Below, piece after piece: positions 5,616 through 17,132 of a DNA stretch of 36,662 bases. Below the pieces are notes generated by a model. That model did no database searches. It saw nothing but the letters and a program-made list of their open reading frames with translations, and was not told the DNA's origin. Source of the stretch: Paludibacteraceae bacterium (GTDB lineage: Bacteria > Bacteroidota > Bacteroidia > Bacteroidales > Paludibacteraceae). The stretch covers positions 1 through 36,662 of the forward strand of contig JAGBVI010000074.1 in assembly GCA_017630395.1 (NCBI GenBank). The letters run 5' to 3'. The position numbers were made by a program, and so were the translations under genes. Within the stretch, counting starts at the first letter, position 1. Each line of letters starts with the position of its first letter.

Positions 5616-6608
5616 ATGTACACTCCGCCATTTGTTATAACGTCTAAGGCTATAAATCTGATAGCAGAAATTTCGTCGCTCATTGAGCGATACGCGATTC
5701 GGCTGGAAATGCAAGACGGCTTGCGTTTGCGTAAGGCAAATCGTATAAAAACCATACATAGTTCGTTGGCGATTGAGGGAAATAACCTATCGGAAGCAGA
5801 GGTTGAAGACATCCTGAACGGAAAGCATATTGTAGCCCCTTTGCGAGAGATTCAAGAAGTGAAGAATGCAATCCGCACCTACGAATTGTATGAGACTCTC
5901 AATCCGTTTGACATAAACGACCTGCGTCGTGCGCATGGTGTGATGATGGAGGCGCTTACTGAAGATGCAGGAAACTTTAGGCGAGGAGGTGTGGGCGTGT
6001 ATTCCGAAAAAGGAGTTGTGCATATTGCTCCACCTGCAGAACGTGTGCCGACTCTGATGGCTGATTTATTTGAGTGGTTGCGCTCAACCGACGACCATTT
6101 GCTTATTCGCAGTTGCGTGTTTCACTACGAATTTGAATTTATCCATCCTTTTAGTGATGGAAACGGACGCATGGGGCGTTTGTGGCAGTCACTCATCTTA
6201 GGAGAGTTGCATCCGCTGTTTGCGCATTTACCTGTGGAGAATATGGTATATGCCAACCAGCAAAACTATTACGATGCTATTCAAGCAAGCACAAAAAACG
6301 GCGAGTCCGGACCGTTCATCGACTTTATGCTACAAGAAATTCTGAACACATTAAGTCGGTACAAAGGCGAAAATATTGAAGAAGTTCGGGATAAAGTTCG
6401 GGATAAAATTCGGGATAACTTCGGGATAACATCGGCACAAATAATAGAGTTTGTATTAACACAACCTGCCATCACGTTAGATGCCATTGCAGAAGAGATG
6501 CACTGCACGCGACGGACGGTAGAGAAACATGTGAAAGCGCTTCGCGAGGCAGGCGTATTGCAGCGTGTGGGAGGTAATAAAAACGGACATTGGGAGGTGA
6601 ATCTATGA
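5616..6608 (+). CDS. Fic-domain protein (AMP/NMP-transferase) with C-terminal winged helix
   Basis: This 330-aa Fic protein contains the full active motif HPFSDGNGRMGR at 177-188 (catalytic His177, Asp181, Arg185, Arg188), so it is predicted to transfer AMP or another nucleotide phosphate to a protein hydroxyl. The N-terminal helix carries a class II inhibitory motif, SLAIEG (Ser50-Gly55), which in this family blocks ATP orientation until relieved. A HTH/winged helix at about 270-325 (TLDAIAEEMHCTRRTVEKHV) suggests DNA binding. A charged VRDK/VRDK/IRDN linker at 257-268 is encoded by a 12-bp tandem repeat. The gene starts 2 nt after hsdM, and its stop overlaps the hsdS start (ATGA), so it is co-translated with the restriction genes. 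Fic genes inside type I loci are known, but their role there is not settled. Confidence 0.93.
   Translation: MYTPPFVITSKAINLIAEISSLIERYAIRLEMQDGLRLRKANRIKTIHSSLAIEGNNLSEAEVEDILNGKHIVAPLREIQEVKNAIRTYELYETLNPFDINDLRRAHGVMMEALTEDAGNFRRGGVGVYSEKGVVHIAPPAERVPTLMADLFEWLRSTDDHLLIRSCVFHYEFEFIHPFSDGNGRMGRLWQSLILGELHPLFAHLPVENMVYANQQNYYDAIQASTKNGESGPFIDFMLQEILNTLSRYKGENIEEVRDKVRDKIRDNFGITSAQIIEFVLTQPAITLDAIAEEMHCTRRTVEKHVKALREAGVLQRVGGNKNGHWEVNL
6384..6430 (+). repeat. 12-bp in-frame tandem repeat inside fic
   Basis: GTTCGGGATAAA occurs twice exactly (6384-6395, 6396-6407), then as ATTCGGGATAAC (6408-6419) and a partial TTCGGGATAAC (6420-6430). The unit is a multiple of three, so gain or loss of copies would change linker length between the Fic domain and the winged helix without a frameshift. 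Confidence 0.8.
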
Positions 6609-7900
6609 GCAGAACAATGAAAGATAGCGGCATCCCTTGGATTGGTGAGATTCCTGAAGGGTGGAGTATAGATACAATAGGTAATCTTTATGCACTGCGA
6701 AATGAAAAAGTGAGTGATAAGGACTATCCTCCATTATCAGTAACTAAGCAGGGTATTGTTCCGCAGTTGGAAACGGCTGCAAAAACAGATGATGGGGATA
6801 ATCGTAAACTTGTTAAAGTGGGAGATTTTGCTATTAATAGCCGTTCTGATAGGCGAGGCTCATGTGGAATATCGGCTTATGATGGTTCAGTATCGCTTAT
6901 CAATACGGTTATAACGCCAAGAGAGCAAATGAATCCGTGCTTTTATAATTGGCTTTTTCATTCAGAACTATTTGCAGATGAGTTCTATAAATGGGGACAC
7001 GGCATTGTTGATGATTTGTGGACAACACGATGGCAGGAGATGAAGCGTATAGGTATCATCACCCCCCCTCTCGCCGAGCAGCACCTTATAGCCACATTTC
7101 TCGACAAGAAGTGTTCCGAAATAGATTCGTTGATAGAGTTGCAAGAGCAGATGATAGAGGAACTCAAGGCATACAAACAATCTGTTATCACAGAGGCGGT
7201 TACAAAGGGTCTGAACCCTAATGTGCCAATGAAAGATAGCGGTATTGAGTGGATTGGCGACGTGCCGGAAGAGTGGGAGGTAAAGAAATTATCTAAATTA
7301 TTATCATTTAAAGGTGGTTTTGCCTTTAATAGTGATGATTTTATTAATAGTGGAGATAATCAAGTCATTAGAATAGGGAACGTTAGAAATGATTTATTGC
7401 GTCTCGAAGTATCTTCTGTATATATATCTGACGATATAGCAATACAAGCACAAAAATCTCAATTAGAGAAAGGGCAAATATTATTTACAATGACAGGGAC
7501 AAAAGGTAAAAGAGATTATTTTTATACATTACTGCTAAAAGAAGAAGATTTTAATGGTAAAAAGTTTTTTTTAAATCAAAGAGTTGGATGTTTTGTTCCC
7601 AAGAATGGAGTTTGTGCAAACTATTACAACTATTTACTAAAGGATAACCACATTCTTGATTTTATTTTTTTATACGAAACAGGAACTGCAAATCAAGGGA
7701 ATTTAGGCATTGAGTCCATTAATAAGACTATTCTACAATATCCTCCTCTCGCTGAGCAGCAAGCCATTGCCGACTACTTAGACAAGAAGTGTGGTGAGAT
7801 TGATGAGTTGATTACCATCAAGCAGCAGAAGATAGAGAGCCTCAAGGAATATAAGAAGTCGGTTATTTACGAATATGTGACAGGGAAACGTGAGGCGTAG
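6605..7900 (+). CDS. hsdS: Type I restriction-modification specificity subunit HsdS
   Basis: This 431-aa protein recognises the bipartite DNA target and bridges HsdM and HsdR. It has the usual two-fold layout. Each half starts with MKDSGI-x-WIG-x-x-P-x-x-W (residues 5-20 and about 209-224), then has a target-recognition domain, and ends in a conserved helix (PPLAEQ ... FLDKKCSEID ... LKAYKQSVI at about 153-200; PPLAEQQAIADYLDKKCGEID ... LKEYKKSVI at about 380-425). The start is ATG 6605, overlapping the fic stop as ATGA. An earlier TTG at 6590 is not needed. The second recognition domain (about 7290-7740) is far richer in A+T than the conserved parts, as expected for a swapped module. A GGGCGAAT hairpin lies immediately after the stop. 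Confidence 0.95.
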   Translation: MSRTMKDSGIPWIGEIPEGWSIDTIGNLYALRNEKVSDKDYPPLSVTKQGIVPQLETAAKTDDGDNRKLVKVGDFAINSRSDRRGSCGISAYDGSVSLINTVITPREQMNPCFYNWLFHSELFADEFYKWGHGIVDDLWTTRWQEMKRIGIITPPLAEQHLIATFLDKKCSEIDSLIELQEQMIEELKAYKQSVITEAVTKGLNPNVPMKDSGIEWIGDVPEEWEVKKLSKLLSFKGGFAFNSDDFINSGDNQVIRIGNVRNDLLRLEVSSVYISDDIAIQAQKSQLEKGQILFTMTGTKGKRDYFYTLLLKEEDFNGKKFFLNQRVGCFVPKNGVCANYYNYLLKDNHILDFIFLYETGTANQGNLGIESINKTILQYPPLAEQQAIADYLDKKCGEIDELITIKQQKIESLKEYKKSVIYEYVTGKREA

Positions 7901-7941
7901 GGGCGAATCGCATTCGCCCTGTTGTATATCCGCAATATTTA
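7901..7941 (+). repeat. Dispersed repeat copy 2 with hairpin, directly after hsdS
   Basis: GGGCGAAT (7901-7908), loop CGC, ATTCGCCC (7912-7919) form a strong 8-bp stem starting on the base after the hsdS stop codon. The following bases match 1441-1458. There is no T-run, so it is a poor classical terminator, but it may limit read-through or stabilise the mRNA end. Confidence 0.55.
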
Positions 7942-7964
7942 CCCATGTAAAAAACGCATCGTTC

Positions 7965-8057
7965 CAGTCGAAAAACCTGTCACACTGTGACACATTTTTC
8001 GATTAGGGAGCAAAGAATATCTGGCAGGGGGAAGTAGGTATTTGCAGAAAACTTGTA
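7965..8057 (+). repeat. 93-bp direct repeat, left copy, containing a 35-nt imperfect palindrome
   Basis: This copy and the one at 9386-9478 are both 93 bp long and differ at only about four positions. The first part (7968-8002) is a near-palindrome built on TCGAAAAACCTGTCACA and its complement. The rest (GCAAAGAATATCTGGCAGGG and onward to ACTTGTA) is unique sequence shared only by these two copies. The two copies bracket the ATPase gene exactly. Confidence 0.9.
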
Positions 8058-8101
8058 TATTTGTAATCGAAAAACCTGTCACAATGTGACATAAATTTCG
8101 A
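8056..8101 (+). promoter_or_regulatory. -7 box and operator-like palindrome at the ATPase start
   Basis: TATATTTG at 8056-8063 fits the -7 consensus. It is followed directly by a second palindromic unit at 8067-8101, starting TCGAAAAACCTGTCACA and ending in TTTCGA. The predicted transcription start falls inside this palindrome, and the ATG is only 5 nt after it. The placement suggests either an operator or a 5' hairpin that controls translation. No TTTG box is correctly spaced upstream. Confidence 0.5.
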
Positions 8102-8106
8102 ATAGA

Positions 8107-9363
8107 ATGAAAAGGATAGAAAGAGAAAAATATCTGAATGATTTGATTTCATTGATGGGAAATGGTATGATAAAAGTCATAACAGGAATGCGTAGATGTG
8201 GTAAATCGTATCTTTTGTTTGAGATTTTTTCATCATACTTGGAGAGCAATGGGGTGGCATCTGATCATATTATCAAGATTGATTTGGAAGATTACAAGAA
8301 CAAGTCTCTAAGAAATCCTGATAACATTTATAATTATGTGGAGAGCAGCATCACAGACAATGATACTTATTACATTCTTCTTGACGAAGTGCAAATGCTT
8401 GATGACTTTGTTGATGTTCTGAATGGATTCCTAAAAAAACAAAATGTGGATGTTTATGTGACAGGGAGCAATGCAAAGTTTTTGTCTAAGGATGTTATTA
8501 CAGAATTTAGAGGAAGAGGTTTTGAGGTGCGAGTATATCCGCTAAGTTTTAGCGAATATATGTCTGTGTATCAAGGCTCGTTGCAGTCCGGTATCAATGA
8601 GTACATGTTGTATTGAGGTCTTCCTCAAATCTTGTCATATAATACAGAAGAGCATAAGGCTTTATTCTTAAAGTCTTTGTTTGCAGAGACTTATATAAAA
8701 GATATAAAAGAACGTTACAACATAAAAAAGGATGACGATTTGGAAGAGTTGATAAACATAGTCGCTTCCGGAATAGGAACACTGACAAATCCGAATAAAT
8801 TATCCAATACATTCAAGAGTGAAAAGAGATCTTCTATATCGTATGATACGGTAAAGGATTACATAGAATACTTATGCGATTTTTTTATCGTTGAAAAGAC
8901 AGAACGCTACGATGTGAAAGGGAAGAACTATATCAATTCTCTTCATAAGTATTATTTCATGGATTTAGGGTTGCGCAATGCACGTCTAAACTTCAGGCAG
9001 TTTGAAAAGACACATTTGCTCGAAAATCTTATTTACAATGAGTTGAGAATGCGCGGATACAACATAGATGTCGGCGTAGTACCTTCTGTAATAAGGAACA
9101 AAGACGGAAACCAGCAGCGTGCCAATTATGAAATAGATTTTGTGTGCAATGCAGGCAGCAGACGCTATTATATACAATCGGCATATCGCATGGAGAGTGA
9201 TGATAAAATTAAGCAAGAAAAAACATCTCTGTTAAAAGTTGACGATTCATTTAAAAAGATTATCGTTGTTGGAGATGAGATGCCAATCACAAGAGATGAT
9301 AACGGTATTACGATAATTAATATTTATGATTTCTTATTGAAATCTAACTCTTTAGAATTGTAG
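8107..9363 (+). pseudogene. AAA_14/DUF4143 ATPase, interrupted by an in-frame TGA at codon 170
   Basis: Read through one TGA (8614-8616), this is a 418-codon gene of the AAA_14 plus DUF4143 family. It has Walker A GMRRCGKS (27-34), Walker B YILLDE (89-94), the RGRGFEVRVYPLSFSEYM segment, and a DUF4143 region that starts YMLY-stop-GLPQIL. Family members normally have YGGLP here, so one substitution (GGA to TGA) explains the stop. There is no frameshift on either side, and the downstream half (TYIKDIKERY ... YEIDFV with a nuclease-like core) is well preserved. There is no ATG near the second half. Members of the family are abundant, poorly understood ATPases. The gene is enclosed by 93-bp direct repeats, which points to a mobile or duplicated cassette placed between hsdS and hsdR. 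A recent pseudogene, stop read-through or a sequencing error are all possible. Confidence 0.85.
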
Positions 9364-9696
9364 CACTCTGCGATTTTATTTTATGCAGTCGAAAAACCTG
9401 TCACACTGTGACAGGTTTTTCGATTAGGAGGCAAAGAATATCTGGCAGGGGGAAGTAGGTATTTGCAGAAAACTTGTAAAAACTTGAAGATTTTTAAAGA
9501 ATCTACAAGAATTTACCTATTTTTACAGAAAATAGTTTAAAAAGTGTAAGAAACGTGACAAGTGCAGATGATTCTACATTGGTTTCAATTCTTCAACAAG
9601 TTGTTGATTATTTTTAATCGCAGTTCTACATTCTCAGAATATGCGACAGTCAAGCAAGTAGAATTCAACACTTTTGAGTCGTAAATTTAATACATC
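9364..9696. other. Intergenic region between ATPase and hsdR
   Basis: These 333 bases hold the right copy of the 93-bp repeat (9386-9478). The remaining 218 bp are AT-rich, with no gene. No good TAnnTTTG promoter for hsdR was found, so how hsdR is transcribed is unclear. Confidence 0.6.
9386..9478 (+). repeat. 93-bp direct repeat, right copy, containing a perfect 35-nt palindrome
   Basis: Positions 9389-9423 form a perfect inverted repeat: a 17-bp arm TCGAAAAACCTGTCACA, one central base, then the complementary arm. It is followed by the same 50-odd bp of unique sequence as in the left copy. A transcript would fold into a very stable hairpin ending in GGTTTTTCGA, which could also act as a terminator for the ATPase gene. 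Confidence 0.9.
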
Positions 9697-12600
9697 ATGG
9701 AAACCAAAGAAAAAAACTTCGAAAACGATATAGAGGCCTACTTGCTATCTCACGGATATGCAAAGGGCAGCCAGCAGACCTATGACAAGGCAAGGGCTAT
9801 TGATATGCCTCTGCTTATATCATTCATACAAGCCACGCAGCCTAAGATGTGGCAGCGTTACTGCAATGTCTATGGCGAAAAGGCGGAGAAGCAGCTCTAC
9901 ACCATCTTTCAGCAAAATGTGGAGCAGAACGGATTGGTGCATGTGTTGCGTTATGGCGTGAAGGACAGAGGCATGGAGATACGGTTTGCCTACTTTGCGC
10001 CGGCCTCCAACCTCAACATAGATTTGGTGGAGCGTTACAAGGCAAATATCCTCACCTGCACACGTCAGTTCGCCTACTCTGCGCAGAACCATAACACCAT
10101 TGATGTGGTTCTGTCTCTGAATGGAATACCGGTGGTGGCTCTGGAGCTGAAGAACCAACTCACCGGTCAGTCGGTGGCAAATGCCCAACATCAGTATATG
10201 TATGACCGCGACGAGAAGGAGTTCTGTTTCCGCTTCAACAACCGTTTCCTTGTCTATTTTGCCGTCGATCTATATGAGGTGGCAATGACAACACAGTTGC
10301 AGGGCGAAAAGACCTTCTTCCTGCCATTCAATCAAGGCTCCAATGGAGCAGGAAATGTGGGCGATGGCGGCAATCCTAAGTGCGAAAACGGCTATATCAC
10401 CTCCTACCTTTGGGAGTATGTTCTTAGCAAAGATATGCTACTCTCTATCCTCCAAAGGTACATCAGTAAGCAGGTTACCGAGACAATTTCGCTCGAAAAA
10501 GGGAAAAAAGTGACCCGAAAGCAGACACGACTGATATTCCCCCGTTATCATCAGTTGGATGTGGTAGAAAAATTGGTGGCAGATACCAAGAGTAGCAAAG
10601 GGGGGAGAAACTATTTGTTGCAACACTCGGCGGGTTCCGGAAAATCCAATGAAATAGCCTGGTTGACCTATCGATTGGCATCGTTGCATAACGAAGAGGA
10701 TCAAGAGATGTTCCAATCCGTATTTGTTATCACAGACAGAAGAGTGTTGAACAAGCAGTTGCAAAACACCATTCTCGGGTTTGAACATTACGAAGGACAG
10801 ATAGCCACCGTTACAGACAAAGATAACTCCTCTGTTTTGAGGGATGCCATCAATGACAAGAAGCGCATTATAATCACCACTTTGCACCGGTTTTCTTTGA
10901 TTTATAAAGAGTTGGACAATCATAAAGGCAAGCAGTTTGCCATCATTGTGGATGAAGCGCACAGTAGTCAGTCCGGCAAGAGTGCAGAGAAGTTGAAAGC
11001 AGCTTTGGCAGATACAGAAGAAGCCCTGAAAGAGTGGGCAGAAATAGAGGGCAAAGCCGTTTGTGAATTTGAGCAAGACGAGTTGGACAAAATAGCCAAC
11101 CTACTGACCCAAGGAAAACATAAGAATCAGTATTACTATGCATTCACAGCCACACCCAAGCCCAAGACGTTGAGTACCTTTGGCGAGTGGCGAGATGGGA
11201 AGTATGATGCCTTTCATCACTACTCCATGCGACAAGCCATCGACGAGGGATTTATTTTGGATGTTTTGAAATACTACACCACCATAGAGACCTCCTACAA
11301 GATAGCCAAGAAGATAACGGAGAATCCGGAATTTGTGGAGCCACCAGCGACAAGGGCAGTAAAGGCCTTTCACGACAATCATGAGTTTGTGATTGAGCAG
11401 ATGGTAGCATTGATGGTTGAGAAAATCAGAGAGGTAACACTTCATAAGATGGGAGGTAGAGCCAAAGCTATGGTTGTATCACCATCGAGAGCCCATGCGG
11501 TTCGATTTTTCTTCGCCATGAAGGAGTATTGTGCGAAGCAGGGTTACAAGAGAGTGAAGCCAATGGTGGCGTTCTCCGGCACTGTATTGTATAACGGACA
11601 GGAGTTCACAGAGCCACAGCTAAACAGTACAGAAGATTTAAAAATATCTGAGAGCTCACTGCCCATGTACTTTGCATCAGACCTATTCAATGTGTTGATT
11701 GTAGCCGACAAGTATCAAACAGGTTTTGATGAGCCACTGTTGCACACGATGTTTATAGCAAAACCCTTGAAGGGAGTGAAGGCAGTGCAGACACTCTCTC
11801 GCCTCAATAGAAGCTGCCAAGGCAAAGTGGACACCTATGTGCTCGATTTCTCGAATACTGCCGAGTCAATAAAGGATTCGTTCCAGCCATTCTATGAGGA
11901 GACATGGCTTGGAGATGATATAGATGTGAACATAGTTTATAAGTACCTGAACGAGCTAAAAGCGTACCATTTATGGAGCAACGATTTGGAGACGAAGGTT
12001 TTTGATACGTACACCACAACGCAAGAGATGGGTAAATTGACGGCACTGTACCTGCCGGTGTTGGCAGAATACGAGAAGTTGGAAATAGAAGAAAAGTTCA
12101 AGGTAAGACACTTAGTAAGAGTATTTAATCGTTTCTATTCCTATATGGCTCAGATTGTTCGCACATTTGATGTAGAACTCTACAAGACCTATATATTTAC
12201 CGAGATACTCTATAAGTTGATTCCTAAGACGCCGCACGAAACGGTGGATTTGACAGGAAAGTTGTCATTAGAGCATCATAAGTTTACCGAGGGGTTCTCG
12301 GGTTCTATTGTGCTTGCACCCACAGCAGAAGATAAGACTTTGGAGAGTGAGAAGGGAGGCTCCGGCAGTGTACCTACGGAGAAAAAAGATTTGCTTAGCA
12401 ACATTATTGAAAAGATTAACTTAATGTATCAGGGCAACTTCACCGAGGCCGACAGGGTAATCATTGAAACCATATATGATGCCATACAAAAGGAGAATAA
12501 GAAGCTTTCCAAGCAAGTGAAGAACTCGGATGTCAATATGTTCGCTCAAAACATCTTTCCTAAGATCTTTGAAAAGATAGCGCAGGAATGTTATGTTCAA

Positions 12601-12714
12601 CACATGGATTCTTTTGCAAAACTATTTGAAGAACCATCTTTCTATAAACGCGTAATGGAAGAGATGGGGAAGGGCATGTATTATAGGATAAAGGAAGAAT
12701 CAGGAGAGGAATAG
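9697..12714 (+). CDS. hsdR: Type I restriction endonuclease subunit HsdR
   Basis: This 1005-aa protein is the motor and nuclease subunit that translocates and cuts unmethylated DNA. The N-terminal nuclease core shows Asp136 (NTIDVVL) and Glu150-x-Lys152 (ALELKNQ), the D...ExK pattern. The helicase motor follows, with Walker A GSGKS (313-317), the TTLHRF motif near 395-399, DEAH (419-422) and FTATPKP (483-489). A second RecA-like half has YQTGFDEP and QTLSRLNRS. The length is normal for the family. All key residues are present, so the enzyme looks intact. It is separated from hsdS by the ATPase cassette and 1.8 kb, and shares the higher GC of hsdM. A secreted-protein gene begins 10 bp after its stop. 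Confidence 0.96.
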   Translation: METKEKNFENDIEAYLLSHGYAKGSQQTYDKARAIDMPLLISFIQATQPKMWQRYCNVYGEKAEKQLYTIFQQNVEQNGLVHVLRYGVKDRGMEIRFAYFAPASNLNIDLVERYKANILTCTRQFAYSAQNHNTIDVVLSLNGIPVVALELKNQLTGQSVANAQHQYMYDRDEKEFCFRFNNRFLVYFAVDLYEVAMTTQLQGEKTFFLPFNQGSNGAGNVGDGGNPKCENGYITSYLWEYVLSKDMLLSILQRYISKQVTETISLEKGKKVTRKQTRLIFPRYHQLDVVEKLVADTKSSKGGRNYLLQHSAGSGKSNEIAWLTYRLASLHNEEDQEMFQSVFVITDRRVLNKQLQNTILGFEHYEGQIATVTDKDNSSVLRDAINDKKRIIITTLHRFSLIYKELDNHKGKQFAIIVDEAHSSQSGKSAEKLKAALADTEEALKEWAEIEGKAVCEFEQDELDKIANLLTQGKHKNQYYYAFTATPKPKTLSTFGEWRDGKYDAFHHYSMRQAIDEGFILDVLKYYTTIETSYKIAKKITENPEFVEPPATRAVKAFHDNHEFVIEQMVALMVEKIREVTLHKMGGRAKAMVVSPSRAHAVRFFFAMKEYCAKQGYKRVKPMVAFSGTVLYNGQEFTEPQLNSTEDLKISESSLPMYFASDLFNVLIVADKYQTGFDEPLLHTMFIAKPLKGVKAVQTLSRLNRSCQGKVDTYVLDFSNTAESIKDSFQPFYEETWLGDDIDVNIVYKYLNELKAYHLWSNDLETKVFDTYTTTQEMGKLTALYLPVLAEYEKLEIEEKFKVRHLVRVFNRFYSYMAQIVRTFDVELYKTYIFTEILYKLIPKTPHETVDLTGKLSLEHHKFTEGFSGSIVLAPTAEDKTLESEKGGSGSVPTEKKDLLSNIIEKINLMYQGNFTEADRVIIETIYDAIQKENKKLSKQVKNSDVNMFAQNIFPKIFEKIAQECYVQHMDSFAKLFEEPSFYKRVMEEMGKGMYYRIKEESGEE

Positions 12715-12724
12715 GAGGGAAGAG

Positions 12725-14938
12725 ATGAAGAGAATTTGGATTGCATATATATGTTTGCTCGGAAGTTTAATCCATCCGCTGCAGATTGAGGCTGAAGAAG
12801 AGTTTGGAACTCCACTTTTACCTCCAAAAACAAAAAGAGCAGAACTTACAGAAGGCATTTGGCAAGATTATGTCAAAACAAAGCCGGAAGGATATGTAGA
12901 AGTTGGAGATACGATTTTTATTTACGATGAAGAGGCGTTTGCTTGGTTGTCTGCAAAGTGGCCTAATGGAGGTTTTGAAGGAAAATTCATAACATTAAAG
13001 ACTGATTTAGATTTAAGTGGAAAAGAGTTTTTTCCGTTAGCCAATGGACCTGCAGCCACTTTTCGCGGTGTATTTGATGGGAATATGCATACAATTAAGG
13101 GATTAACGATATCGGCAGAAGTTATTGACCGAATGAATAGTTATATAATAGCTTTATTTGGATATAATAGTGGAATAATAAAAAATTTAATCATAGAGGA
13201 TTATTACATTTACAGCAATGGAATGTGGTGTGCTGTTTTAGTAGGTATTAATCATGGTCTTGTAGAGAATTGCCATACAGATGGAATTATATGTAATTTT
13301 GGGAATTACTCATCAGGGATGGTCGGGCATGGATATTCATCAGAAATTAAAAATTGTACTACTTCAGGAAAAATTTCAGTGATAAAAAGAACTCCTTCAA
13401 TAGGATGGCAATGGGCAGCAGGATTTGCATCATACGGAGGCGTTAAAATTCAGAATAGTGCTAATTTTGCACGTATATATGGAGTAGGGAGAGGTGCAGG
13501 AATTTCCATTCATGGTTTATATACGGTTAATTGTGCCAATTATGGATATGTAACAGGAGAAAATGTTGGAGGCATTCAAGTTGAAACTCAAGAAAAATTT
13601 TACATAATCAATTGTTTTAATACAGGGAAAGTATCTGACTATGGTATTGTTGGGAATGGATTTAGACCAGGGTCTGTTTTTAATGTTTACAATGTTGGTA
13701 GTGAGTTATTTAACACTGTAAAGCGTCATACATTTCAGAATATATTTTGGAAAGGAATTGAGTCTACGTTTACTTATAATAAGGAAATAGGTTACTCCTC
13801 TTTTGAAGGTAAAGAGGAAAGCTGTAAGTTGGATAATTATGTTTTTTTGAATCTAAACGAGGAGGGAGATTCTGTATTTACAAATAATCTTATTGATGCT
13901 CTTAATGGTTGGTGCGAAAGAAATTCTGGATATTATACATGTTCTGATACAATAGATGAAAATATAGATTATACAGTACCATTGGCAAGGTGGATTCCCG
14001 ATACAAAATTGTTAAATAATGGTTATCCACTTATAAAAGGAGTTCCTTATCGTAAAGCTATTCCAAGAATTGTTACAAAAGATACGACAATAACAATCTG
14101 TGCGGGAGTAGAATATGGTGATCGAGTATATACAAATGAAGATCACGAGACGGTACAACAATTGAGGGTTGGGGATGTTATTTACCAAAAGGCAAAACTA
14201 TTAGTAAAATCTCCTTCTTTTGACAAAATAGGTTTTAATGGTCCTAAATTTTTATGTAAAGGACAGACTTTTGACTTTAATGCGCATGGAGGCGAAAGTT
14301 ATCAGTGGGTTGTTAATGATAGAGTACATTCTAATTCTGCTTATTGTGGAATAAATCCATCGATCTATCCATGTGCTCTGATTGAATTGGAAGTTATGAA
14401 AGATGGATGTCCACATACTATTTATGATACAATTCCTGTAGAAGTGGATACTTTTCTTGTTGAAATGAAAGGATGGGGTGATGTAATCGCTATTAATAAT
14501 AAAGATTCTTTGTGTCTCGCTTATCAATGGTATAGAGATGGAGAAATTTTAAAGGGTGAGGTGGGACAATATTACTATGAGGCTGGAGGTTTAACTCCGG
14601 GAAAATATACTGCTAAAATATTTTTGTCAGATAGTACTATGATTAATACTTGTCCATTGCAAGTTGAAGGGTTGGAAAAAACAAAATCTGCCGAAGTGTC
14701 TGTGAGAAGTTATCCGATTCCTGCATGTGCGGAAGAAGTGTTATCTGTAGAAGTGCAGAATGTTGATGATTTTTCATCTGGGACTTTGTTTATTTACGAT
14801 GAAAAAGGAAGACTTTTTTATAAAGAAGATAAGGTAAGAAAAATAAACAATTTTAAACTTCCAGAAGGTTGTTTTATTGTAGTTTTCAAACAAGGAGAAG
14901 TGGAAACTCGAGGTCATAAAATAATCGTCAAAAAGTAG
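12725..14938 (+). CDS. Secreted beta-helix-like (GLUG-type) protein with T9SS sorting domain
   Basis: This 737-aa protein has an N-terminal signal peptide (about 1-23). A long region of short, Gly- and Asn-rich repeats follows (IIKNLIIEDYYI, GLVENCHTDGII, SEIKNCTTSGKI), of the kind seen in GLUG/right-handed beta-helix surface proteins. The last ~75 residues (SYPIPACAEEVLSVEV ... LFIYDEKGRLFY ... LPEGCFIVVFKQG ... HKIIVKK) fit the type A T9SS sorting domain, so it should be exported and attached to the surface. A GGAGGGA ribosome-binding site lies just before ATG 12725. The gene starts 10 bp after hsdR but is clearly more AT-rich, so it probably belongs to the host chromosome or a separate transfer event. 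The ligand or role is unknown. Confidence 0.8.
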   Translation: MKRIWIAYICLLGSLIHPLQIEAEEEFGTPLLPPKTKRAELTEGIWQDYVKTKPEGYVEVGDTIFIYDEEAFAWLSAKWPNGGFEGKFITLKTDLDLSGKEFFPLANGPAATFRGVFDGNMHTIKGLTISAEVIDRMNSYIIALFGYNSGIIKNLIIEDYYIYSNGMWCAVLVGINHGLVENCHTDGIICNFGNYSSGMVGHGYSSEIKNCTTSGKISVIKRTPSIGWQWAAGFASYGGVKIQNSANFARIYGVGRGAGISIHGLYTVNCANYGYVTGENVGGIQVETQEKFYIINCFNTGKVSDYGIVGNGFRPGSVFNVYNVGSELFNTVKRHTFQNIFWKGIESTFTYNKEIGYSSFEGKEESCKLDNYVFLNLNEEGDSVFTNNLIDALNGWCERNSGYYTCSDTIDENIDYTVPLARWIPDTKLLNNGYPLIKGVPYRKAIPRIVTKDTTITICAGVEYGDRVYTNEDHETVQQLRVGDVIYQKAKLLVKSPSFDKIGFNGPKFLCKGQTFDFNAHGGESYQWVVNDRVHSNSAYCGINPSIYPCALIELEVMKDGCPHTIYDTIPVEVDTFLVEMKGWGDVIAINNKDSLCLAYQWYRDGEILKGEVGQYYYEAGGLTPGKYTAKIFLSDSTMINTCPLQVEGLEKTKSAEVSVRSYPIPACAEEVLSVEVQNVDDFSSGTLFIYDEKGRLFYKEDKVRKINNFKLPEGCFIVVFKQGEVETRGHKIIVKK

Positions 14939-16001: not shown

Positions 16002-17132
16002 ATGGAGAGTAAACCTTTTATATTTGGGATAGCTACATCGGGCGATAATTTCACCGATCGCAAGAAAGATACAGAACGACTATTGCTAAATTTTAAGCAC
16101 GGAGTGAATACAGTGTTGATTTCACCTCGTCGTTGGGGTAAAACTTCGCTTGTTCAGAAAGTGTGTCATTTGGCACAATCTGATGAACTAAAAGTAGTTT
16201 ATTTGGATATATTCTCGTGTCGCAGTGACAAAGATTTCTATGATGCATTTGCAGCAGCAGTTCTTAAACAAACATCATCTAAATTGGATGAGTGGTTGGA
16301 AAATGTAAAATTATTTCTTTCTCGTGTCAGTCCGAAAATTTCGATAGGAACAGACCCAATGACAGATTTTTCCATTTCACTGGAGATGAATCCTAAGCGA
16401 GAAGATATTGAAGAAATTTTGCAACTTCCGGAAAAAATAGCTCAGAAGAAAGGTTTCAATATTGTAATTTGCATCGATGAGTTTCAGCAAATTGCAGAGT
16501 TCAAAGATTCCAAAACATTTCAGAAGCGACTACGAACCGTGTGGCAGTTGCAAAAATCGGTATCCTATTGTTTGTTTGGCAGTAAAAAGCATTTGATGAA
16601 TGAGTTATTTGAGAAAAAGAGTTTACCGTTCTATAAATTTGGAGATGCTATCTATTTATCAAAAATCGGGACAGCAGATTGGGTGGAGTATATATGCAGC
16701 CGTTTTATGGTTACCGGCAAAGTGATTACGAAAGAGTTGGCAGAAAGAATCTGTCGAATGGTGGATAATCACTCGTCGTATGTGCAACAATTGGCATGGT
16801 TGGTATGGATACGAACAGACCAGCTCGCTACCATAAATGATTTAGAGGCTGCATACCAAGATATTATCGAACAAAATACGCCGTTGTTTGAAAAACAGAC
16901 GGAGAGTCTTACTACCTATCAAATGAATTTCTTGCGAGCAATTATCGATGGTGTGCATAGCGAATTTACCACGCAAGAAACCTTAAATAAATATCAACTT
17001 GGTTCATCGGCAAATGTCGCTATCGTGAAAAAAGCTTTAGTGAAAAAAGAGTTGATTGAAGTGGAAAAAAGGCAAATCGTTATTTCAGATCCCCTGTTGG
17101 CAGTGTGGCTGAAAAAAGAGCTGAGATTCTAG
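16002..17132 (+). CDS. AAA ATPase of the archaeal ATPase_2 (PF01637-like) family
   Basis: This 376-aa STAND-like ATPase has Walker A SPRRWGKTS (41-49) and Walker B IVICIDE (154-160), followed by FQQIAEF, typical of the ATPase_2 family. The C-terminal ~80 residues (YQMNFLRAIIDG ... TQETLNKYQLGSSANVAIVKKALVKKELI) form a winged-helix region like that of DUF234-type members. No cellular role is established for most of these proteins. Some are near toxin or mobile elements. It is a single gene under a promoter with a 15-bp repeat array. Its TAG stop coincides with the first bases of a 70-bp inverted-repeat element, so the natural C-terminus may have been altered by insertion. Confidence 0.85.
   Translation: MESKPFIFGIATSGDNFTDRKKDTERLLLNFKHGVNTVLISPRRWGKTSLVQKVCHLAQSDELKVVYLDIFSCRSDKDFYDAFAAAVLKQTSSKLDEWLENVKLFLSRVSPKISIGTDPMTDFSISLEMNPKREDIEEILQLPEKIAQKKGFNIVICIDEFQQIAEFKDSKTFQKRLRTVWQLQKSVSYCLFGSKKHLMNELFEKKSLPFYKFGDAIYLSKIGTADWVEYICSRFMVTGKVITKELAERICRMVDNHSSYVQQLAWLVWIRTDQLATINDLEAAYQDIIEQNTPLFEKQTESLTTYQMNFLRAIIDGVHSEFTTQETLNKYQLGSSANVAIVKKALVKKELIEVEKRQIVISDPLLAVWLKKELRF

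Follow-up and report, generated by a model that had tools for sequence, protein, structure and literature searches.

The window, by which we mean the whole 36,662-nt stretch of DNA analysed here, carries an ATPase gene that is preceded by hsdM, a Fic gene and hsdS and followed by hsdR, as assigned with Pfam (Table 1). A sequence-only reading of this DNA had placed an AAA_14/DUF4143 gene between hsdS and hsdR, bracketed by two 93-bp copies with about four differences, each opening on a 35-nt palindrome that was perfect in the right copy, and had seen a third palindrome abutting the start codon. This anatomy was borne out throughout. The two direct copies (93 nt, 96% identity) differ by 4 mismatches; the palindrome P1 that opens the left copy is imperfect and its counterpart P3 is perfect; and 5 nt separate the third palindrome, P2, from the ATG. 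The centres of P1 and P2 are 99 bp apart, as measured on a closely similar locus in a Paludibacteraceae MAG from yak caecum (L007) and likewise found in the window. Between them, TATATTTG fits the pattern TAnnTTTG, which we take to be the -7 promoter element of Bacteroidota.

Table 1. Coordinates of the features at the ATPase locus, in positions of the window.
Feature	Position	Strand	Basis
hsdS, left neighbour	6590..7900	+	Pfam
Left 93-bp copy (P1 + 58-bp tail)	7965..8057	+	aligned to right copy and L006 single copy
P1, imperfect 35-nt palindrome, upstream of promoter	7968..8002	strandless	sequence
TAnnTTTG match between P1 and P2	8056..8063	+	sequence
P2, palindrome between promoter box and start codon	8067..8101	strandless	sequence
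AAA_14-DUF4143 ATPase gene (PDC-S01 type), interrupted	8107..9363	+	Pfam; PDC-S01 via intact L007 copy
Right 93-bp copy (P3 + 58-bp tail)	9386..9478	+	repeat comparison
P3, perfect 35-nt palindrome	9389..9423	strandless	17-bp arms, 1-nt centre
hsdR, right neighbour	9697..12714	+	Pfam

With up to 3 mismatches allowed, the palindrome core yielded 5 strand-matches across the window; none of 100 shuffles contained it. A slightly longer palindrome pattern, scanned over the whole 3.57-Mb genome to which the window belongs (G000), occurred at the same 3 sites only, and a dispersed repeat or REP element was rejected because the genome holds no further copies. The 89-bp tail had no other match below E 0.04. 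Elsewhere in the same DNA we noted a second ATPase gene (16002-17132, ATPase_2/AAA_22-like by Pfam) and, behind hsdR, a 737-aa ORF (12725-14938) with no Pfam match at E<=0.001; the genome as a whole has 13 DUF4143 matches, four of them within ~7 kb on contig C108.

The ATPase frame of the window is broken by an in-frame TGA at 8614-8616, on which the sequence-only reading was silent. Pfam recognised one domain on each of the two halves into which the stop splits the gene (AAA_14, 2.6e-34; DUF4143, 2.5e-20). The L007 copy, ~99% identical, is open throughout, and its protein matches the PDC-S01 model of PADLOC with E 1.9e-121. PDC-S01 models, which stand for proteins that combine AAA_14 and DUF4143, are also matched by 25/25 members of our alignment A1; what the window carries is a PDC-S01 ATPase gene broken by a stop. 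In the relative L057, the stop is the terminal one and the gene is unbroken. Walker A and B motifs (GK[ST] and DE[VIP]Q) are present in 72 of 73 aligned proteins, the exception being the truncated L069. The DUF4143 part we take to be DNA-binding and a relative of the PD-(D/E)XK nucleases. At the catalytic stretch of that motif E-x-K is expected; 72 of the 73 proteins read Q-x-[AST] at this place, with Q for E and A, S or T for K, and one is without the stretch, so the nuclease residues are absent. A search for a solved structure by sequence similarity returned only matches at E above 0.2.

Relatives of this protein were collected from 101 neighbourhood genomes (51 with a match at E<=1e-40), from 393 genomes of the order (25 with a match at E<=1e-95), and from plasmid records, phage records and viral contigs, and their flanks were examined for a subset. 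Our close set comprised 55 relatives with a valid start, at least 43% identity to L007 and less than 88% identity to each other; it leaves out L206, whose locus starts inside the gene, the truncated L069, and L202, which has little upstream DNA. Controls were the ORFs of 20 chosen 20-kb stretches of first-sample genomes, none of them from plasmids or viral contigs. A P1-P2 pair with a score of at least 14 was found before 28 of the 55 close relatives, compared with 7 of 71 control genes that have their own promoter (p=3e-7; kinship was handled solely by removing proteins at least 88% identical, and p values otherwise ignore phylogeny) and with 9 of all 199 control ORFs. The other 27 close relatives lack a pair at this score. 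At a score of 12 the counts were 33/55 and 9/71, and at a score of 10 the difference was small (40/55 against 31/71). Behind the gene, a further copy of the operator zone was found in 14/55 relatives and 1/71 controls at a score of 14, and in 20/55 and 13/71 at a score of 12. A frequent oriented order in relatives is P1, promoter box, P2, ATG, with palindromes that differ, and it is also found round the promoter of relatives that have no flanking repeats. Two dyads bracketing a promoter at a fixed spacing thus occur in about half of the close relatives; the relatives on Proteobacterial and Lactobacillus plasmids (L252-L255) show no clear P1/P2 pair. With low counts in control genes, none in shuffles and none elsewhere in the genome, and with nothing in its favour, we regard it as refuted that the palindromes are a chance or generic genomic repeat. 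One relative with P1/P2 (L165, NZ_CP133466.1) is a 2,630-bp circular Prevotella nigrescens record with nothing but a DUF4143 ATPase and a TaqI-like methyltransferase fragment; either an excised circle or a by-product of assembly would explain it.

The distance between the two palindromes is strikingly uniform. Centre spacing was 73-78 bp in 21 of the 28 pairs and 75-76 bp in 16, the independent events being fewer than the rows counted. A promoter box could be found by pattern in 23 of these 28 relatives, and in 15 of them it was TAnnTTTG, 47-54 nt before the ATG. The spacing persists despite very different palindromes and differing boxes, which are either TAnnTTTG or TATAAT-like. The TATAAT-like boxes come mostly from viral contigs of unstated host, and L257, from Vescimonas (named Bacillota), has the operator of L211. 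Outliers are L007 and the window (99 bp), L205 (95), L066 (104) and L055 (56). In more distant relatives with a pair (<43% identity), the spacing was 37-44 bp in 9 of 16. This geometry bears on whether the palindromes could insulate the gene as RNA hairpins or terminators, a role that their RNA fold scores (z -4.5 to -7.6) and the terminator-like matches at P1 and P2 (4 in the region against 1.0 in shuffles) would allow. Since P1 lies upstream of the promoter box it is outside the transcript, yet it has the sequence of P2 at a fixed spacing from it; moreover, the palindrome cores of many lineages are short and AT-rich, and there was no Rfam match. We therefore hold a role as RNA structures to be very unlikely.

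Start-proximal palindromes were also scored in a sample of DUF4143 genes that had not been selected by similarity to L007. DUF4143 matches in 41 genomes across the phylum, the window's own included, fell at 58 places in 30 loci and gave 25 usable starts, 2 of which lie in the window's own genome. A palindrome with z>=2 relative to shuffles lay within 75 nt of the start in 16 of the 25, compared with 5 of 71 controls, and one with a score of at least 10 in 15 of the 25, compared with 2 of 71. In L259, for example, TTTTATGTAATTTGGAAATTGAACTTCCAAATTGCATAAAA stands immediately before the ATG. Where an internal direct repeat scored at least 12 in this sample, its offset was 32-34 bp in 7 of 8. Among distant relatives of L007 the z>=2 count was 28/52. 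The close clade (L069 included) was weakly separated by this measure (15/57, median z 0.51, p=6e-3), because its cores are short and its A-tracts lie in like orientation; the pair test is the stronger one there. Many members of this abundant family thus appear to come with a DNA target of their own, placed ahead of the gene.

The palindromes differ between lineages, and they do so together with the protein. L178-L180 share the operator GCGTATATACGC, L192, L195 and L189 share GTGTAAATACAC, L052 and L054 share TGCCAATAnTGGCA, and L207, L208 and L210 share TTGCGGATGCCGCAA; the window, L167, L171 and L168 have operators of a GTCAC/GTGAC type, and TGCCAATATTGGCA as well as GCGTATATACGC are among those of other lineages. 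We compared 1596 pairs from the close set (L069 included) by the best ungapped match between windows of 55 nt. In the last 55 nt before the ATG, a score of at least 12 was reached by a fraction of 0.89 of the 18 pairs with 70-88% protein identity and by 0.38 of the 66 pairs with 60-70% identity. In the 55 nt far upstream or after the stop, that fraction was 0-0.06, which means that the neighbouring DNA that stays with the gene is the operator zone. Operators that are variants of the window's stand before the genes of proteins with 77, 77, 75 and 52% identity (L167, L171, L172 and L168), and L173 has such a variant too; neither hsdS nor hsdR was found in the examined DNA of these five loci. The sequence-only reading had suggested a link between the palindrome and these ATPases; the link holds, and relatives elsewhere have linked palindromes of their own, different ones. 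A dif/Xer module was dropped as a candidate because the palindromes differ between lineages.

If the protein binds its own palindrome, then tracking of this kind would be predicted, and a promoter travelling with its gene would also keep the resemblance for a while. Because the palindrome changes with the protein by lineage and no other gene was seen to travel along, the ATPase is the likeliest binder. The operators could instead be real and be bound by another regulator, such as a Fic protein bearing an HTH or a repressor of the host. Neighbouring Fic proteins do have HTH matches, and in L252, too, a Fic gene adjoins the relative. Other relatives stand beside unrelated genes (rpsA, a sortase gene, TerL, the gene of ribosomal protein L19), and they do so on chromosomes, plasmids and viral contigs with differing palindromes, all of which a single external regulator could hardly fit; we accordingly give a foreign binder only a small probability. 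Our prediction, made with moderate confidence, is that the palindromes are operator pairs of the ATPase gene and are most likely bound by the ATPase itself.

The history of the hsdS-hsdR locus could be followed in an exact scan for the 25-mer TCGAAAAACCTGTCACANTGTGACA over genome contigs, in which 84,980 species are represented by a single genome each. Only two records contained it, L007 and L006, the latter from a genome of the window's genus (G006). In L006, hsdS is followed by one palindrome with its tail and then by hsdR, with no ATPase between. This single copy is 91% identical to the window's left copy (7893-8057), and from 9389 on the agreement with the window's right copy and hsdR is 93%. 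A single repeat copy at a locus lacking the ATPase is what the sequence-only reading had anticipated, and L006 has exactly one; nor is the palindrome widespread away from the gene, its exact form being found, in the genome and in the scan of 84,980 species, solely beside this ATPase or at the L006 site. The palindrome core is absent from L092, another hsdS-hsdR locus, and from L091, which has hsdR with a different left neighbour, and no viral contig contains the exact palindrome, though 54 loci there hold relatives of the protein. Relatives at other sites have P1 and P2 as parts of the gene, so the single L006 palindrome is most simply a scar, and we think it better read as a remnant left by gene loss than as a naive target; less probably, it may have attracted the gene. 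L007 and the window are 98.4% identical over 7056-9514, which covers the latter half of hsdS and everything up to and including the right repeat, while hsdR is 76% identical. This contrast between genera indicates that the segment moved across them recently, whatever the route. In L007 (3575-5078), a Fic-HTH gene lies between the ATPase and hsdR, and direct copies of ~55 bp from the tail of the ATPase repeat flank this gene in turn. Different single genes thus appear to enter the hsdS-hsdR spot in a similar way, and with a Fic gene bracketed as well, the ATPase need not be the only gene to undergo the process.

Bracketing repeats were not confined to this locus. We searched 800 bp on each side of the gene for direct repeats of at least 30 bp and found them round 15 of the 54 close relatives and 7 of the 51 distant ones (the distant set not being redundancy-filtered), that is 22 of 105, as against 1 of 199 control genes. 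The repeats were 30-318 bp long; 12 of the 22 include a clear operator copy, one a partial copy (L086), and nine have no operator match (score <=9: L058, L059, L065, L071, L072, L082, L175, L184, L237). In some of the operator-free cases, what is repeated is the 3' terminus of the gene ahead, which lies on the same strand. The repeat comprises 88 bp with the end of the ribosomal protein L19 gene and a terminator-like hairpin in L184, 110 bp from the end of a tyrosine integrase gene in L175, 168 bp from the end of an unidentified ORF in L071, and 51 bp from the end of the upstream ORF in L058, whose C-terminus resembles that of an AraC regulator. In L237 (3712-5396, a viral contig), the ATPase gene lies directly behind the gene of the terminase large subunit, and the 106-bp end of that gene is repeated behind the ATPase.

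Sites without the gene were found for two of these cassettes. The L19 gene end of L184 occurs in 82 of 99 genomes of the G702 genus, and among the best 19 of those loci, 18 show a single copy without the ATPase, and the remaining one carries the same cassette and two copies. For L071, the congeners G180, G137, G121, G160 and G102 of its genome (G034) have single copies with differing 3' ends and no ATPase in the examined DNA, and in G034 itself a G160-type end stands on one side of the gene and a G180-type end on the other, each allele being present in a gene-less congener. Two end alleles require two events or the integration of a circle; they rule out a simple duplication, and the pattern would suit homology-driven integration of a circle and, equally, an insertion with later exchange. 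Transposase-type target duplication as the sole cause of the repeats was ruled out by their variable lengths, and L142 (in G000) was discarded as a clean empty site for L057, its flank being rearranged. Two further arrangements were recorded. L062 and L063 (1263-4400) contain nested cassettes, in which a second AAA_14-like gene, in reverse orientation and preceded by CACTTTTTCGGGCGACTT repeats, is enclosed by 110-bp repeats next to the first, and the right-hand palindromes of the two strains diverge from the centre outwards. L117 (G001:C35, 1490-1540) has a perfect long palindrome near a 30-aa DUF4143 remnant and is apparently a relic after gene loss.

The sequence-only reading had seen in all this a gene that carries its own repeat and can be gained or lost, and had noted that the structure is not that of a normal IS. 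The latter stands: the ATPase frame is alone between the window's direct repeats by ORF list and Pfam, which show no transposase or recombinase there, and the marks of an insertion sequence or transposon (a transposase, terminal inverted repeats, a short constant duplication) are absent. As to the former, gain and loss of the gene are real, and the excess of bracketing repeats and the single-copy empty site support this part, but the palindrome should not be taken simply for the terminus of a mobile element: P1 and P2 sit round the promoter in relatives with no flanking repeats as well, and nine of the 22 repeats are operator-free. The original observation is right, its mobility reading is half right, and its useful part is larger than was stated. 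Mobility driven by the palindromes, with these as recombination or insertion sites and the ATPase gene as a minimal mobile element that they delimit and on which it acts, would account for the operator-like copies behind the gene, for the bracketing repeats, of which 12 include a clear operator copy, for the gene-less single-copy sites of the window, L071 and L184, and for the near-identity of the segment in another genus. The operator-free repeats of widely varying length, the altered PD-(D/E)XK residues, the lack of a transposase or recombinase between the window's repeats, and the position of P1 and P2 on the promoter with or without flanking repeats all speak against it, and we consider it unlikely. 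A wider proposal is that AAA_14-DUF4143 genes in general are minimal mobile elements free of a recombinase, in which the ATPase, assembling on its own paired palindromes, would silence itself, promote insertion behind genes with duplication of 50-320 bp of the target's 3' end, and be lost through the copies; we offer this as a long shot.

The operator reading that we prefer suggests the following course of events. A pair of palindromes that the gene owns and keeps at a fixed distance is probably both a switch and a binding site of the encoded protein. P1 lies upstream of the promoter and P2 near the expected transcription start, so that the pair brackets the promoter; one protein complex bridging the two copies could turn it off by looping in the manner of lac and gal, and the ATPase would thereby repress its own promoter. 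Gene and operators would come and go together. At hsdS-hsdR, P1 and its tail recur behind the gene as P3 and its tail, and recombination between these direct copies could delete the gene, with one copy staying behind, which is the state of L006. On this account, P3 and the direct copies would be secondary and offer a way to lose the gene.

PDC-S01 is a candidate anti-phage defence. As far as the available excerpts of two 2026 surveys go, it ranks fourth in frequency among the defences of all prokaryotes, most candidates of this kind still awaiting experimental validation (PMC12988326), and is the individual locus that a rumen survey found most often, with 10,358 occurrences in rumen genomes (PMC13356809). 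These excerpts give its abundance and domains and no operator, spacing or DNA target (PMC12988326, PMC13356809). Judged by titles, the literature we searched held nothing on operators of PDC-S01 or DUF4143 genes, and DUF4143 appeared in it, in the parts available, as a single table-row mention. A palindrome pair specific to each gene means that every gene names its own likely DNA target, and the palindromes of neighbouring lineages are ready non-cognate controls, so that the contacts of these proteins could be tested concretely and cheaply. A separate question, namely how such solitary genes spread, is raised by the 3' ends of L19, terminase and integrase genes that recur behind the cassettes.

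Three known systems invite comparison. Paired dyad operators that act through DNA looping are familiar from lac and gal, where, as here, a dyad site occurs twice and flanks a promoter tens of bp apart, sometimes with a further copy beyond; the supposed binder here is an ATPase instead of a LacI-type repressor, and looping is putative. RAYT/REP systems consist of a Y1 transposase gene and palindromes dispersed through the genome. They share with our cassettes the single gene, the palindromes on both sides and the differences between lineages, but no transposase domain is found here, and the palindrome occupies three sites at one locus. Integrative elements, finally, sit at the 3' ends of genes, and several of our cassettes likewise lie behind a gene whose 3' end recurs beyond them (L19, TerL, integrase and others); they differ in that no integrase lies between the repeats, that the repeat measures 51-168 bp in these cases, and that the site varies.
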